Below, piece after piece: positions 50,680 through 56,772 of a DNA stretch of 64,000 bases. The notes beneath the pieces are model-generated. The model worked only from the letters and a program-made list of their open reading frames with translations. It was not told where the DNA came from and searched no databases. The DNA is from Nonomuraea turkmeniaca. Its GTDB lineage: Bacteria > Actinomycetota > Actinomycetes > Streptosporangiales > Streptosporangiaceae. How positions within the stretch are numbered: position 1 is the first letter of the stretch; each line of letters begins with the position of its first letter. The DNA lies in NCBI RefSeq assembly GCF_005889735.1, contig NZ_VCKY01000010.1:1-64000 (forward strand), written 5' to 3'. Made by a program: the position numbers and the translations under genes.

Positions 50680-51429
50680 ATGGGGCATTTATCCACCCTC
50701 CGCACCATTTCACATTCCTTTCTCCATCTCGAGGTCGACGACGCGGAAGCCGCCTCGCTGACCCCATGGACCGGCCACGTCCGCTACACCCCCAAGTACG
50801 GCGGCCGGAAGACGACCGCCGAGAGCTGGGCCCTCGAACTGGCCCCCAAGTCCGCCCTCGCGGCAGGCGTCAACTCGGTCCGCGGGCGGGAGCGTGAGCG
50901 CTTCTCGCTGAGCGGCGGCGAAGTCGTCGTCTACGACTGCGAGGATCCGGCCGACGCCCGATGGGTCGCGTGGCTGGGTCCGTGGCACATGGCGCACGGG
51001 CTCTTCTACGCCCCCGAGTGGGAATCGTCCGACATCGTCGACACCTTCAGCCGGGTGACGTGGGTCGACACCCCCGAAGGGCTGACGGCCGACGGCGGCT
51101 CGCGCTTCGACGTCTCCATGGAGTTCTACGCGACCTGGATCGCGGGCGTCGGCACCATGATGGTCGAGTCCAAGCAGGCCGGAGTCAGCCGGATCCCCAA
51201 CTGGCGAGGGTACGCCGCGAGTTCGGGCGAACTGTGGCGGATGCCCGCGCCGCCCTCGGGTGAAGAGACGCCGTTCCTCCTGGTCACCGAGACCGCCATC
51301 GCGACCCTCTACCCCTGGGACGCCCCGAGCGACGGCAAGGCGAGCGTGTCGGCTCGCGCGGCGGCAGGCAGCGCGGAGACCGCCGCCGGCTTCCTGAGCA
51401 AGGTCAAGCGCGTCGAGTGGCAGGCATGA
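50680..51429 (+). CDS. Hypothetical protein, first gene of the MauD/MauE-like operon
   Basis: 249 residues, ATG preceded by AGGGGA. No signal peptide or membrane helix is visible, so it is probably cytosolic. The sequence is rich in Trp (WTGHVRYTPKYGGRKTTAES, DARWVAWLGPWHMAHGLFYA, SMEFYATWIAGVGTMMVESK) and predicted mainly beta. It ends one base before the MauD-like gene, so it belongs to that operon. It could be a maturation or scaffold factor for the exported Cys-rich protein; I do not recognise a family. Confidence 0.7.
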   Translation: MGHLSTLRTISHSFLHLEVDDAEAASLTPWTGHVRYTPKYGGRKTTAESWALELAPKSALAAGVNSVRGRERERFSLSGGEVVVYDCEDPADARWVAWLGPWHMAHGLFYAPEWESSDIVDTFSRVTWVDTPEGLTADGGSRFDVSMEFYATWIAGVGTMMVESKQAGVSRIPNWRGYAASSGELWRMPAPPSGEETPFLLVTETAIATLYPWDAPSDGKASVSARAAAGSAETAAGFLSKVKRVEWQA

Positions 51430-51430
51430 C

Positions 51431-51937
51431 GTGGAGCCGTTGACGGCGGCGGTCGTCATCCTGGCCATTCTCGTCATCATCCTCTTCGCGGCCGGCGCCG
51501 GGCTCTACCGGCGGGTCCGTGAACTGGAGCTGGCCACCTACAGCGGCGTCGGCATGCGCCTCAGCACCGGCCCCGACACGCAGGCGAACGCACTGGCCGT
51601 TCCCGGCGGCACCACCATGGTCATCAAGGTCAATCGTCGCTGCCCCATCTGCGACGATGTCCTGCTCGCGGCTGCCAAGCTGGCGACCGACCTCCCTCCG
51701 GACCTGTCGTTCGCGGTGTTGTCCGACGATCCAGGGTTCGACAAACCCCTGCCCGACTCCATCAGGGTGATCAAGGATCCGGCGACCTGGCGAGCGGCCG
51801 GCGTGCCGTACACCCCGGCGCTGCTCGTCGTGGACGAGAACGGCGTCGTGGGCTTCACCTCCCCAGTGGGATCCGGAGAGGCGCTCGTGGAGATGGTCGA
51901 GCGTGCGGTGGCGAACAGAAAGGAAAAGCAGCTGTGA
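51431..51937 (+). CDS. MauD-like membrane-anchored thioredoxin-fold protein
   Basis: 168 residues from GTG 51431. One N-terminal membrane helix (LTAAVVILAILVIILFAAGA) leaves a thioredoxin-like domain outside. The active site is C71-P-I-C74 in IKVNRRCPICDDVLLAAAKL, with a cis-Pro type loop at GVPYTPALLVVDENGVVG. MauD-type proteins help form disulfides in methylamine dehydrogenase light chain. Here the immediate downstream product is an exported Cys-rich protein, so the same job is likely. The stop overlaps that gene's GTG (GTGA). Confidence 0.85.
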   Translation: MEPLTAAVVILAILVIILFAAGAGLYRRVRELELATYSGVGMRLSTGPDTQANALAVPGGTTMVIKVNRRCPICDDVLLAAAKLATDLPPDLSFAVLSDDPGFDKPLPDSIRVIKDPATWRAAGVPYTPALLVVDENGVVGFTSPVGSGEALVEMVERAVANRKEKQL

Positions 51938-52446
51938 CGGCCGAAAAGCAGATCTCCATCCTCGATCAGATTCCCAGCGCCCACGAAATGCCCGAGCAGG
52001 CGTTACCCACCCTCGTGGGCGCCAAGCGGGAAGGGTGGAGCAGGCGCCGCATCCTGGGCCTGGCCACCGGAGCCGCGGTGGCGACCGGGCTGGGCGTCCT
52101 CGACCTCCTGCCCTGGTCGAAGCCGCGCGCCGCGGCGGCCGCCTCCTACACCGCATGGAGTACCTGCCGGGGCTACGTGAACGCCAGCACCGTCTGCACG
52201 CCCTCGAGCGCGCTGTACTCCGGCAACTGCTCCGGCTCGTGGCACCGCAACGACGGCGGGTCCGGTACCTGCTACAACTTCCGCTACACCCACTACGCCA
52301 CGACCTGCGACGGTCACAACGCGTGGAGGTGGACCGGCGGCAGCACCACCAGCACCCGCCGCAAGTGCTCCGACGGCTGGTACGAGTACAACGACTGCGG
52401 CGGCGGCCGGGTCTCCCGCTTCTCCATCTGCCGTACGGCGATCTGA
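51934..52446 (+). CDS. Tat-exported Cys-rich protein, possibly methylamine dehydrogenase light-chain-like
   Basis: 170 residues. An unusually long n-region (about 36 residues, SAHEMPEQALPTLVGAKREG) precedes the twin-arginine motif SRRRILGLATG and a hydrophobic core. The mature part of about 100 residues has eight Cys and several Trp in YTAWSTCRGYVNASTVCTP, NCSGSWHRNDGGSGTCYNF, CDGHNAWRWTGG and CSDGWYEYNDCGGG. The YNDC element and the MauD/MauE-like neighbours recall methylamine dehydrogenase light chain, which has more Cys and a Trp-derived cofactor. Folding before Tat export would have to leave disulfides to the surface machinery. The function is not established. Confidence 0.7.
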   Translation: MTAEKQISILDQIPSAHEMPEQALPTLVGAKREGWSRRRILGLATGAAVATGLGVLDLLPWSKPRAAAAASYTAWSTCRGYVNASTVCTPSSALYSGNCSGSWHRNDGGSGTCYNFRYTHYATTCDGHNAWRWTGGSTTSTRRKCSDGWYEYNDCGGGRVSRFSICRTAI

Positions 52447-52455
52447 CCGCGCCCG

Positions 52456-53187
52456 ATGAGCGATCCCACGACCACATCCGTCCGCCTGTTGCTGCCCGGG
52501 GTGGCATTGATCGTGGCGGCGGAGGCACTGGTGCTGTCCCTGAGGCTGACGGGCGCGGACACCAGAGGCTTCACCTGGCTGGTGGCGGCCCTCGTCGCCG
52601 GCTTCTCCCTCTCCGGCTCCGTTTGAAGCCTGAACAGCGCCTGGGTGCTGTCCTCGTCGGTCCGGCGGGGTGCTGATATCGCCGGCTTCATCGCCGGGTT
52701 GTTCGCAGGAGCGGGCGCCGTCACGTTCGTGCTGGTGCTCGTCGGATCTGTGCTTCGAGCACCGTTCCCGACGGTGGTTCTGCAGATCCTCGTCGCCGCG
52801 GCGGCGGTTGTCCTCCTGCTCCGTGAGCTGGATGTGCTCTCCTTCCCGTTGCTCCAGAACGCGCGGCTGGTGCCGCAGTTCGTCACCAGGATTCCCTTCT
52901 GGGGCGCCGTGCAGTTCGGTGCCGAGATGGGCACGGGAATGCGCACGTACTCGCCGACGGGGCTGCCGCACATCCTGGCGATCTCGATCCTGTTCCTGGC
53001 GTCCTGGGAGGAAGCGCTCCTCGCGGGGGCCGGCTTCGCGGCGGCGCGGGCGTTGATGCTCCTGACGTTCGCCGCGGCACGGGACAGGATGGAGGCGGAC
53101 ACGGCGTTCTCTTTCACCCTGCCGAGGCTGAAGGTGCTGTTCGTCGTTCTCGCACTGCCCGTAGTGACGATGCTGGTGATCGGGTGA
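52456..53187 (+). pseudogene. Polytopic membrane protein gene interrupted by an in-frame TGA
   Basis: ATG 52456 opens a hydrophobic protein (VRLLLPGVALIVAAEALVLS, TWLVAALVAGFSLSGSV) that stops at TGA 52624-52626. The very same frame then continues without interruption (SLNSAWVLSSSVRRGADIAG, FIAGLFAGAGAVTFVLVLVG, PTGLPHILAISILFLASWEE) to 53187, where it overlaps the MauE-like GTG. Total length is 243 sense codons plus the TGA. The simplest reading is a TGG-to-TGA nonsense mutation in one gene of DsbD/MauF-like topology. Re-initiation at GTG 52645 could still make a shorter protein, and translational readthrough is possible. Confidence 0.65.
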
Positions 53188-53570
53188 TCGTCATCGTCGT
53201 CCGCTACGGGCTGGGCATCCTCCTGGCGCTGGCCGTGCTCGGGAAGGCGCGTCACTTCGCCGCGTTCCAGAGCAGCCTGGCGCCCTTCGGGCTCCGCGGG
53301 CGGATCGCCCAGGTGGGCGCCTTCACGGTGGTGACCGTGGAGGCGCTCGCCGCGCTGACCGCCTTCTCTCCCGTCGCCGACGTGGTCGTGGGCGTGATCG
53401 CGACCTGTCTGGGCGCTTCCTTCACGGCCGCGCAGACGTATCTCCTGGCCGTGGGCGAGCAGGCCCCCTGCCTGTGTTTCGGCCGCCAGGAGCGGGCGTC
53501 GACACGCACGTGGGCCCGGGCGGCACTCGTCCTGCTGATGGGATTGACGTTGTGGGGCGTCGCGGCCTGA
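53184..53570 (+). CDS. MauE/DoxX-like redox-associated membrane protein
   Basis: 128 residues with four membrane helices (VIVVRYGLGILLALAVLGKA, VGAFTVVTVEALAALTAF, VVVGVIATCLGASFTAAQTY, WARAALVLLMGLTLWGVAA). The loop motif C96-L-C98-F-G in GEQAPCLCFGRQ matches the MauE group, which passes electrons or disulfides to MauD. GTG start overlaps the end of the preceding membrane gene. It completes a set of thiol-redox proteins around the Tat-exported Cys-rich product. Confidence 0.85.
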   Translation: MIVIVVRYGLGILLALAVLGKARHFAAFQSSLAPFGLRGRIAQVGAFTVVTVEALAALTAFSPVADVVVGVIATCLGASFTAAQTYLLAVGEQAPCLCFGRQERASTRTWARAALVLLMGLTLWGVAA

Positions 53571-53603: not shown

Positions 53604-53640
53604 GTTGTAGATGAGGCATCCCCGACGGAGGGCTGGGCCG

Positions 53641-54144
53641 GTGACAGATGACGGCTTCCGCGAGTTCGTGGCCACGCGCGGTCTGGCACTGTCGCGCATG
53701 GCCTACCTGATCACGGGAGACCACGCCCTGGCCGAAGATCTGGTGCAGGAAACCCTGGTCAAGGTCGCGGCGCGCTGGCGGAAGCTCACGCAGGAAGGCG
53801 ACCCGGAGCCCTACGTCCGCAAGGTCCTGATCAATCAGCTGCGGACGTGGCGGCGCCCCCGCCGGCTGGCGTTCGTGTCGACCGCGGACCTCCCCGAGCC
53901 GTCGCCGTCCACGGACGAGTCCGCGCAGACAGATCTGAAGGTCGCGCTCTTGCGGGCGCTGAGCGTGCTCGGGAGCAGGCAGCGGATCGTGCTCTATCTC
54001 AGGTTCTACGAGGACCTCACGGAGAGCGCTGTGGCCGCTGAGCTGGGCTGCTCCATCGGTACGGTCAAACGCCACACCCATGACGCGCTCAAACGCCTGC
54101 GCCAGATGGCTCCGCAACTACTCGAGACGGAGGTGCGCTCGTGA
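53641..54144 (+). CDS. ECF RNA polymerase sigma factor, SigE-family type
   Basis: 167 residues from GTG 53641, with GGAGGG about nine bases upstream. Region 2 is LALSRMAYLITGDHALAEDL, VQETLVKVAARWRKL; region 4 is LGSRQRIVLYLRFYEDLTES, then LGCSIGTVKRHTHDALKRLR. It directs transcription of a small regulon under an extracytoplasmic signal. It is coupled by GTGA to a membrane-anchored propeller-like protein that probably acts as its regulator. Possible targets are itself, the adjacent redox operon and the multicopper oxidase gene. Confidence 0.93.
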   Translation: MTDDGFREFVATRGLALSRMAYLITGDHALAEDLVQETLVKVAARWRKLTQEGDPEPYVRKVLINQLRTWRRPRRLAFVSTADLPEPSPSTDESAQTDLKVALLRALSVLGSRQRIVLYLRFYEDLTESAVAAELGCSIGTVKRHTHDALKRLRQMAPQLLETEVRS

Positions 54145-55232
54145 AACCGCCCCTCGGTGCCGCTTATGACCAGCTCGACCAGGACGTACGCGACTACGCC
54201 GACGCCGGCAAGGCGCTTGCCACGCTGCGCGTCCGCAGAATCCGCAGGGCGGTGATCGCCGGATCGGCCGCCCTCGTGGTGGTCGCCGCCGGAGTCGCCT
54301 TCCAGCAGCGCCAGCCCGCGCCTCCGGACGCCGTGGCGACAGTGGCGCCCCCGACGCATGTCGTGGAGCCGCCCGCCGAAGCGCCGGCGCTGCCCGCCAC
54401 CGGTGCCGTCGGGCGGGGCGCCCTGGTGTACACGGCCTGCCAGGGGCAGTGCCCGACCTTCCTGGTGCTCACCGACGGCCGACAGTATCTGCTGGGCGAG
54501 CGGACCGTCAATCCGCCGGGCAACATCACCCTCTCCCCTGACGGGCGCTGGCTCGGCCGGCCCGTCAACGGTGGGTACGAAGTCAGGGACCTCCTGGCCG
54601 GCGTGGTGCACACGCTCCCGCCCCCGGCCGGAGGCGCCGCGGACAGCGCCTACAGCCCGTGGGCGTGGTCCGCGGACTCGCAACGGCTGCTCGTCGGCCA
54701 CCACGCCAGCGGGAACGTCGGCAGGTACGTGACGCTGGAGCTCCCGAGCGGCCACACCAGCGAGCTCGACCCGCCTCCTGGACACGAGCCGATCGGCCTG
54801 CTGCCCTCGGGTGACGTCCTTCTTCTCATGGAGAGCAAGCAGGACAAGCTGCCGTACGAACGCGTCACGCTCGTGCACGCGGACAACGGCCTCGTCGTCC
54901 GCCTCACGTCCGGAGCGGGTGTCCTCGCCGACACCACCCACGGGCTGTCGATCCAGGTGTCCGGGGAGCGGGTCTTCACTCTGGAGTACTCCGGCGACCA
55001 GATCACGGTCCTGGAGTTCGACCTTGCGGGCAAGCCGATGGCCCGCCGGCCGCTGCCGGCCGACCAGTTCCCGGTCGGGCCGGTCGACGGCGGCTTCGCC
55101 GTCATCCAGGTCCCCCAGGACCAGGCCAAGGGACGGCAGAAGCTGGAGACCATCACCCCGTCCGGGCGCCGGTTGTTGTTCGAGGTCCCCGGGCAGGCCG
55201 CCGTCGTCCTGCCAGGAGGCGCACGGCACTGA
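54141..55232 (+). CDS. Membrane-anchored beta-propeller-like protein coupled to the sigma factor
   Basis: 363 residues. The first ~35 residues are cytosolic and charged (DQLDQDVRDYADAGKALATL), then one membrane helix (AVIAGSAALVVVAAGVAF) and an outside domain. That domain has propeller-like repeats (LVLTDGRQYLLGERTVNPPG, NITLSPDGRWLGRPVNGGYE, WAWSADSQRLLVGHHASGNV) and a pair C-Q-G-Q-C. The layout fits an anti-sigma or sensor partner of SigE-family factors, although no zinc anti-sigma motif is seen. GTG start overlaps the sigma gene stop. Confidence 0.8.
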   Translation: MKPPLGAAYDQLDQDVRDYADAGKALATLRVRRIRRAVIAGSAALVVVAAGVAFQQRQPAPPDAVATVAPPTHVVEPPAEAPALPATGAVGRGALVYTACQGQCPTFLVLTDGRQYLLGERTVNPPGNITLSPDGRWLGRPVNGGYEVRDLLAGVVHTLPPPAGGAADSAYSPWAWSADSQRLLVGHHASGNVGRYVTLELPSGHTSELDPPPGHEPIGLLPSGDVLLLMESKQDKLPYERVTLVHADNGLVVRLTSGAGVLADTTHGLSIQVSGERVFTLEYSGDQITVLEFDLAGKPMARRPLPADQFPVGPVDGGFAVIQVPQDQAKGRQKLETITPSGRRLLFEVPGQAAVVLPGGARH

Positions 55233-55296
55233 CGCTCGGTACGGGTCCGCGTGGCGTAGAGCCATCTCCTGTTACTCTCCGTTACCTTGCCTACTC

Positions 55297-56772
55297 ATGG
55301 ATGCTCTGACATATGCGTGGAGGTCCGGCGCGTACGTGACTCGCAGGCGGTTGCTGGTCACCGGCGCGTTCGCGGCCATGGGCGCGGTCACGGGATCGGC
55401 CGGGACGGCGGTGGCGCAGCCGCGCGGGATGACGCTGCGGGCCCGTCCCGCGAAGGTCTCCCTGGGGCGGCGCACGGTCTCCACCTGGACGTACAACGGC
55501 GTCGTGCCGGGCCCGTCGATCGAGGCCACGGCCGGGGAGACCGTCAGGGTGCCGCTGATCAACGCGCTGCCTGCGAACACCACCGTGCACTGGCACGGGA
55601 TCAGGATCGACCCGCGCATGGACGGCGCGCCCGGGTTCAGCCAGGAGCCCACGCGGCCCGGCGAGCGGTTCGATTACGTCTTCCGGGTGCCGGACCCCGG
55701 GACGTACTTCTACCACTCGCACGTCGGCACCCAGCCCGACCGCGGCCTGTACGGGCCGCTGATCGTCGCCGACCCGCGTGAGCCGCTGAGCTACGACCAG
55801 GAGATCACGGTGCTGCTCGACGACTGGCTGGACGGCATCAGCGGCACTCCCGACGACGCGCTGCGCCGGCTGAACGCGAGCACCCAGCACGACGACACGC
55901 TGCGCAGCGCGGTGCTCGGGGGCGTGGCGGCGGAAATGCATCATCCGCTCTACCTCATCAACGGGCGCGCGCCGGACGCGCCCGCGACCTTCCACAGCGC
56001 GCCGGGGCGGCGGGTCAGGTTCCGGGTGATCAACGCGGCCGCCGACACCCCGTTCCGCGTCGCGCTCGGCGGCCACGAGCTGACTGTCACCCACACCGAC
56101 GGGTTCCCGTGCAAGCCGGTCACCGTCGACTCCATCCTCATCGGCATGGGCGAGCGGTACGACTTCCTCGTGCGGCTCGGCTCGGGCGCGTTCCCGCTGG
56201 TCGCGCTGGCGGAGGGGAAGCGGGCACGGGCGTTCGCCGTGGTGCGGACGTCGCGCAGGGCGGCCACACCCGCGAAGGACGCCAAGGTGGCGCAACTCAC
56301 CGGGCGGATGTTGAACTATGAGGACTTGAGGGCGCCACGCGCCGACCAGCTCCCCCGCCCGTCCAGGGTCGTCACCGTGCGGCTCGGCATGCGGCCGTCC
56401 GGCAACGAGTGGACCCTCAACGACCGGCTCGCCGCCGACCCCATGCGGGTGCAGGTGGACCGCGGGGAGACCATCCGCATCGTGCTGGACAACGAGTCGC
56501 CCATGTGGCATCCGATGCACCTGCACGGGCACACGTTCCAGGTCAACGTGAACGGGTTGCGGGGGCCGCGCAAGGACACCGTGAACATCAAGCCGCGCGA
56601 GCGCCTGGAGATCGACGTGCTCGCCGACAACCCCGGTGAGTGGATGTTCCACTGCCACAACCTGTACCACCAGGAGCAGGGCATGATGGGCGCGCTCGGC
56701 TACGGCCCGCCGCCGCGTCGCGGCACGACCCACACGGGCATGCATCGCCCGGCCCACAAGCGCACGCACTAG
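55297..56772 (+). CDS. Multicopper oxidase, Tat-exported (second copy)
   Basis: 491 residues from ATG 55297; a GTG at 55336, just before the Tat motif TRRRLLVTGAFAAMG, is an alternative. Copper motifs: HWHGIR, FYHSHVG, HPMHLHGHTFQV and FHCHNLYHQEQGMM, with Met as axial ligand in the last. It is a three-domain laccase/copper-oxidase type with a His-containing C-terminus (HTGMHRPAHKRTH). It shares little with the first oxidase (15804) apart from the copper motifs. TACCTT eight bases before the ATG could be the -10 box of a leaderless message. The position after the sigma factor and redox operon suggests a common oxidative theme. Confidence 0.94.
   Translation: MDALTYAWRSGAYVTRRRLLVTGAFAAMGAVTGSAGTAVAQPRGMTLRARPAKVSLGRRTVSTWTYNGVVPGPSIEATAGETVRVPLINALPANTTVHWHGIRIDPRMDGAPGFSQEPTRPGERFDYVFRVPDPGTYFYHSHVGTQPDRGLYGPLIVADPREPLSYDQEITVLLDDWLDGISGTPDDALRRLNASTQHDDTLRSAVLGGVAAEMHHPLYLINGRAPDAPATFHSAPGRRVRFRVINAAADTPFRVALGGHELTVTHTDGFPCKPVTVDSILIGMGERYDFLVRLGSGAFPLVALAEGKRARAFAVVRTSRRAATPAKDAKVAQLTGRMLNYEDLRAPRADQLPRPSRVVTVRLGMRPSGNEWTLNDRLAADPMRVQVDRGETIRIVLDNESPMWHPMHLHGHTFQVNVNGLRGPRKDTVNIKPRERLEIDVLADNPGEWMFHCHNLYHQEQGMMGALGYGPPPRRGTTHTGMHRPAHKRTH

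Follow-up and report, generated by a model that had tools for sequence, protein, structure and literature searches.

A probable MauF-type selenoprotein in a mau-like operon beside a Tat-exported cysteine-rich protein of Nonomuraea turkmeniaca

The window analysed here is a stretch of 64,000 nucleotides of Nonomuraea turkmeniaca (contig NZ_VCKY01000010.1, positions 1 to 64,000), in which five genes, W1 to W5, form a compact operon with a probable selenoprotein gene at its fourth position. The operon occupies 50680-53570 on the + strand, and its genes are separated by gaps of 1 or 9 bases or joined by 4-base overlaps, so that the gene order and tight packing given in the original prediction, a note made earlier from the DNA letters, are borne out. 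The first gene, W1 (50680..51429), encodes a soluble Trp-rich protein of 249 amino acids with 12 Trp. W2 (51431..51937) encodes a MauD-like thioredoxin fold with an N-terminal membrane anchor and a C-P-I-C motif, and W3 (51934..52446) encodes a Cys-rich protein of 170 residues with a twin-arginine (Tat-type) export leader and eight Cys, the presumed substrate of the system. W4 (52456..53187) encodes a MauF-type membrane protein that has 243 residues when an in-frame UGA is read as selenocysteine (Sec, residue 57), and W5 (53184..53570) encodes MauE, a membrane protein with a C-L-C-F-G motif. The five-gene order is conserved. Searches by phmmer with the window proteins as queries found W4 in all 41 other loci that were fetched on the basis of encoding W3, with W1-, MauD- or Cys-rich-like genes adjoining it in many of them, and the same set thus recurs in other genomes more than chance would explain. 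No Cys-rich protein without mau-like neighbours was seen, though this does not rest on a full tally of the neighbouring genes at each locus.

The open reading frame (ORF) called at 52645 had been taken for a separate gene of a polytopic membrane protein, but it belongs to W4, whose 3' portion it forms. A same-frame ORF lies upstream of it and a single TGA (52624..52626) stands between the two; this codon and the MauF identity of the protein had both been overlooked. The TGA is located at the identical place in 43 of 43 hits from the window and the 41 other loci, always after SG(S)(V/T/P) and before (S/T)xNS. When whole genomes of the family were searched with the full-length alignment, 80 of 295 held W4 matches. 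There are 95 such matches, of which 93 contain a single read-through TGA and two start downstream of the site. Among ten close relatives, the 44 codons before the TGA show 284, 304 and 648 differences at the first, second and third codon positions, compared with 366, 137 and 585 downstream. The excess at third positions indicates that the upstream segment is translated. The window W4 contains no Cys of its own, and Sec57 is the sole invariant Cys-or-Sec column among 26 of the 43 near-relative hits (alignment A3). Neither NCBIfam nor Pfam gave a noteworthy match for W4.

When 16 W4 proteins were compared as a profile with four MauF sequences (alignment A7), drawn from real mau clusters on annotated plasmids, the match scored 99.6% (E 5.3e-24). 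The alignment covers 184 columns and takes in the entire membrane domain, and Sec57 falls on MauF Cys79, the Cys of a motif, STWSPCG, that is invariant in all four MauF. The 26 near-relative W4 proteins on their own scored 96.8% against MauF (E 2.9e-10), and the negative control, MauA, scored 0.2%. W4 is therefore a MauF homologue in which the position of the invariant Cys is kept and the residue is replaced by UGA, the proposed Sec codon. The flanks differ between subgroups, being SGSV-U-SxNS in the near relatives and SP-U-GxSM in the distant ones. Across the phylum, W4 matches occur in 33 of 396 genomes, the own genome counted. The UGA column of 29 distant loci holds UGA in 21, within the motif (S/G)PUGx(S/A)(M/L), and Cys in two (SPCGQSM in L089 and SPCGFAM in L094); the remaining six show no motif by the pattern used.

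Two hairpins that follow the UGA are proposed to act as its selenocysteine insertion sequence (SECIS). Of 27 distinct near-relative sequences (alignment A4, 27 of the 43 hits), 23 fold into both hairpin I (52634..52651) and hairpin II (52652..52670). The cells of hairpin II are paired in 93.5% of cases in the 27 sequences versus 38-51% when the pairing is slid, one pair is seen as UG, UA and GC, and neither the paired cells nor the covariation score was reached by any of 500 shuffles. The 45 bases after the UGA were also compared with randomised synonymous codons in 18 of the 43 hits, with a mean z of -1.87 and 8 genes at <= -2, against a mean z of -0.11 (SD, standard deviation, 0.89; 5 at <= -2) for 126 control windows of the same genes. 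The 21 distant genes with UGA have a mean z of -1.56, and several show the same two-hairpin layout.

The own genome encodes a tRNA-Sec with the anticodon TCA (78.2 bits, gathering score 47). The same contig carries selD (379.5 bits, cut-off 125) and a selA that reaches the edge of the contig (370.9, cut-off 267.9). On a second contig, a segment that matches the final part of selA (24.3 bits, cut-off 22.8) is followed by selB (258.2, cut-off 242.25). The selA gene appears to be split by the contig break (L134, L135; G000:C292, C310), with its end preceding selB. The distribution of tRNA-Sec was compared in 80 hand-picked genomes, comprising 37 with a match to the Cys-rich protein and 43 others, of which two (G249 and G001) proved W4-positive. 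A strong tRNA-Sec (E < 1e-11) is present in 39/39 genomes with W4 versus 12/41 without (Fisher 1.6e-12, relatedness ignored), and by Rfam's own cut-off the fractions are 39/39 and 15/41. Distances between tRNA-Sec and W4, entered by hand, showed that the two share a contig in 24 of the 39 genomes, lying under 10 kb apart in 19 and over 100 kb apart in five; in the other 15 they were read as being on different contigs or far apart. The nearby W4 of G252 is a partial match without the UGA site. At one locus (L138) selA, selB and tRNA-Sec abut the operon, and at another (L139) selD, selA and tRNA-Sec do so.

The UGA might instead be a true stop, with termination and re-initiation yielding two products, a membrane peptide of 56 residues and a distinct membrane protein of ~180 residues. 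GTG starts are present downstream of the UGA and no SECIS family of Rfam matches the region, as this explanation would have it. However, it has to account for an identical frame with a single intervening codon in 43 of 43 hits, for the continuous reading frames of classical MauF and of two distant relatives with Cys at the UGA column, and for a full Sec machinery that is present in the genome and often adjacent in relatives. A true stop is thus very improbable, and we infer from the sequences that translation of the UGA in W4 as Sec is very likely. Known prokaryotic selenoprotein families likewise have an in-frame UGA with an RNA hairpin after it, a redox context and Cys homologues.

The genes around W4 tie the operon to the mau system to different degrees. 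W5 is certainly MauE, matching PF07291 with 67.1 bits (cut-off 27, E 2.5e-18). W2 is probably homologous to MauD, as judged by profile comparison: an alignment of 11 W2 relatives scored 96.8% (E 2.9e-10) against five real MauD. Direct searches with W2 gave no Pfam or NCBIfam match of note, the MauD model TIGR02661 being silent, and a distant W2 relative scored 95.5 against that model, below its cut-off of 188.6. W1 has no Pfam or NCBIfam match of note and is unrelated to MauJ (profile comparison 0.02%). The mau cluster of Paracoccus denitrificans PD1222 (mauF-B-E-D-A-azu-J-G; L149) and its relatives likewise group the genes of MauE, MauD and MauF homologues with that of a Cys-rich protein exported by Tat. 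In contrast to that cluster, the present operon lacks mauB and mauG, carries W1 as an additional gene, has UGA in place of the MauF Cys, and exports a W3 whose mature part does not align with MauA. The proposal of a mau maturation set reduced to its light-chain branch thus holds for the accessory genes MauE, MauD and MauF, but the comparisons made with the window's W3 do not support it for the light chain itself.

The protein search with W3 gave 63 proteins, the window's own included, which, if they carry a name, are called hypothetical, uncharacterized or, once, twin-arginine signal. The proteins upstream of W4 gave 41 divergent W3 relatives (two of the 43 hits yielded none by the filter used). 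All 41 share four Cys, the two Trp of W-x-W and the Asp of C-x-D, and 40 of them have a fifth Cys as well. W3 has no Pfam match. The suggested comparison with the light-chain family PF02975 gave none either for W3 (nor did TIGR02659) or for 38 members of its alignment A1, and the search of the own genome with PF02975 was negative too, a weak result as its control was also silent. Against real MauA only the Tat leader of W3 aligns (17.8%), and the mature domain does not. The exported proteins of the distant modules do align with MauA from the leader to the first Trp of the tryptophan tryptophylquinone (TTQ) cofactor (96.1%, E 3.1e-9), a score to which the leader contributes. TTQ light chains also make up eight of nine Protein Data Bank (PDB) matches of one distant exported protein (L122), all of them weak (E 0.037-1.3). 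The predicted structure of W3 is poor (pLDDT, the predicted confidence score, 65). Descent of W3 from a light-chain-like protein is plausible from these comparisons.

A further step would be to regard W3 as an enzyme resembling a light chain, for which the module builds a cofactor derived from Trp and similar to TTQ or to cysteine tryptophylquinone (CTQ). Such a cofactor is possible because all 41 divergent relatives keep W-x-W and C-x-D; the accessory genes are of the kinds that serve the TTQ light chain, and the distant substrates resemble TTQ light chains. However, the own genome has no PF03150 match to MauG, with a control that responds in 2 of 14 genomes, which makes TTQ by the classical route unlikely. 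The heavy chain was likewise not found (no PF06433 match in the own genome, its control being silent), and the mature domain of W3 does not align with MauA. A Trp-derived cofactor is therefore doubtful.

Another explanation takes W3 as the precursor of a ribosomally synthesized and post-translationally modified peptide (RiPP), with the mau-like genes as its modifying enzymes. The parts of PMC7794033 that were available describe decRiPPter candidate families of actinomycetes in which mauE or mauD homologues likewise accompany Cys-rich precursors; they report such homologues from clusters of Streptomyces whose precursors have at least 8 Cys, propose these to be RiPPs, and mention neither MauF nor a selenoprotein. 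The strong variation of the substrates beside conserved helpers would fit a RiPP. The Tat-type leader and an invariant-residue pattern like that of a folded domain speak against it, and two distant exported proteins, one fused to LGFP repeats (L113:4636-6438, E 8.2e-31) and one to FG-GAP-like repeats (L119:5325-6770, below cut-off), would better suit an anchored protein. A RiPP precursor is accordingly improbable.

The operon is best read as a selenium-dependent version of the mau light-chain maturation machinery, and a MauF-type selenoprotein and a maturation role jointly are given a probability of about 0.82. In the proposed mechanism, the Tat system would export the small Cys-rich W3, on which three membrane-linked redox proteins would then act: the MauD-like thioredoxin with CPIC, MauE with CLC, and the MauF-type W4 with Sec. 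Since W4 has no Cys of its own and Sec57 is its only invariant Cys-or-Sec column, it would have to react with a partner. Its Sec may form a transient selenenylsulfide with MauD, MauE or the substrate, and W4 could either transfer electrons between the CLC of MauE and the CPIC of MauD or resolve wrong disulfides. The outcome would be the correct formation or reshuffling of disulfides in W3, perhaps around WxW and CxD. That W2, W4 and W5 serve the exported W3 is suggested by analogy with Paracoccus, which cannot metabolise methylamine without MauE and MauD, MauE having been proposed to aid disulfide formation in the light chain (both from the available parts of PMC7794033, citing van der Palen 1997). 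A role of the module in maturation is likely by this analogy. A bolder version, in which a Sec-dependent MauF/MauD/MauE machine needs neither heavy chain nor MauG to install a novel protein-derived modification on the WxW and CxD of fast-evolving actinomycete proteins exported by Tat, and in which some lineages keep the whole Sec-decoding machinery beside the operon, is rather unlikely.

Several observations weigh against this interpretation. The RNA signal after the UGA is moderate, good but not decisive: besides the lack of an Rfam match, 4 of the 27 distinct near-relative sequences fail to form both hairpins, hairpin I differs in register by one base from one subfamily to another and was therefore left unscored as a single helix, and of 500 shuffles of hairpin II, 352 had at least as many pairs with double-sided changes and 424 at least as many pair types. 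No Cys version was found among the near relatives (95 matches in the 295-genome search). The tRNA-Sec of the own genome lies on a different contig than the operon, and 12 of the 41 genomes without W4 still have a strong tRNA-Sec (for example G003, G188, G212 and G065). The selB at L138 scores 237.5, slightly below the cut-off of 242.25, and no tRNA-Sec lies in the 16.5 kb of the Actinoplanes locus (L031), to which the search was limited. It is by analogy with mau that a maturation role and a direction of electron flow are proposed.

W4 seems to represent an undescribed family of membrane selenoproteins in large-genome actinomycetes. A table of 119 prokaryotic selenoprotein families or subfamilies, in the part of PMC13188914 available, contains none of the MauF type. 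No MauF-type selenoprotein is named in the literature searched, as far as its texts were available, preprints and most subscription papers lying outside the scope. The family is probably hidden in databases because gene callers that stop at UGA would shorten such genes. A Sec-containing W4 would offer a reason for the genome to keep Sec decoding despite the lack of TGA in its formate-dehydrogenase-like genes, 0 of 19 such stretches containing a stop codon. It also points to the MauF cysteine as a working residue; to our knowledge, the mechanism of MauF is not known.

Two further genes on the + strand adjoin the operon and are conserved together with the five-gene set in close relatives. W6 (53611..54144) encodes a SigE-family extracytoplasmic function (ECF) sigma factor (TIGR02983, 166.3 bits, cut-off 141.55), and this co-conservation suggests that it is tied to the operon. 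W7 (54141..55232) encodes 363 residues, is probably membrane-anchored, and has no family above cut-off in the Pfam and NCBIfam scans; it may hold extracytoplasmic propeller-like repeats (PD40, E 0.074 only). W6 and W7 may regulate the operon. An ORF downstream (54811-56772) may, judging by its sequence motifs, encode a Tat-exported multicopper oxidase. Elsewhere, one locus (L034, genome G231) carries two divergent versions of the operon a few kb apart on opposite strands, with the TGA in both, and W4 reaches a copy number of up to four in other genomes (G284).

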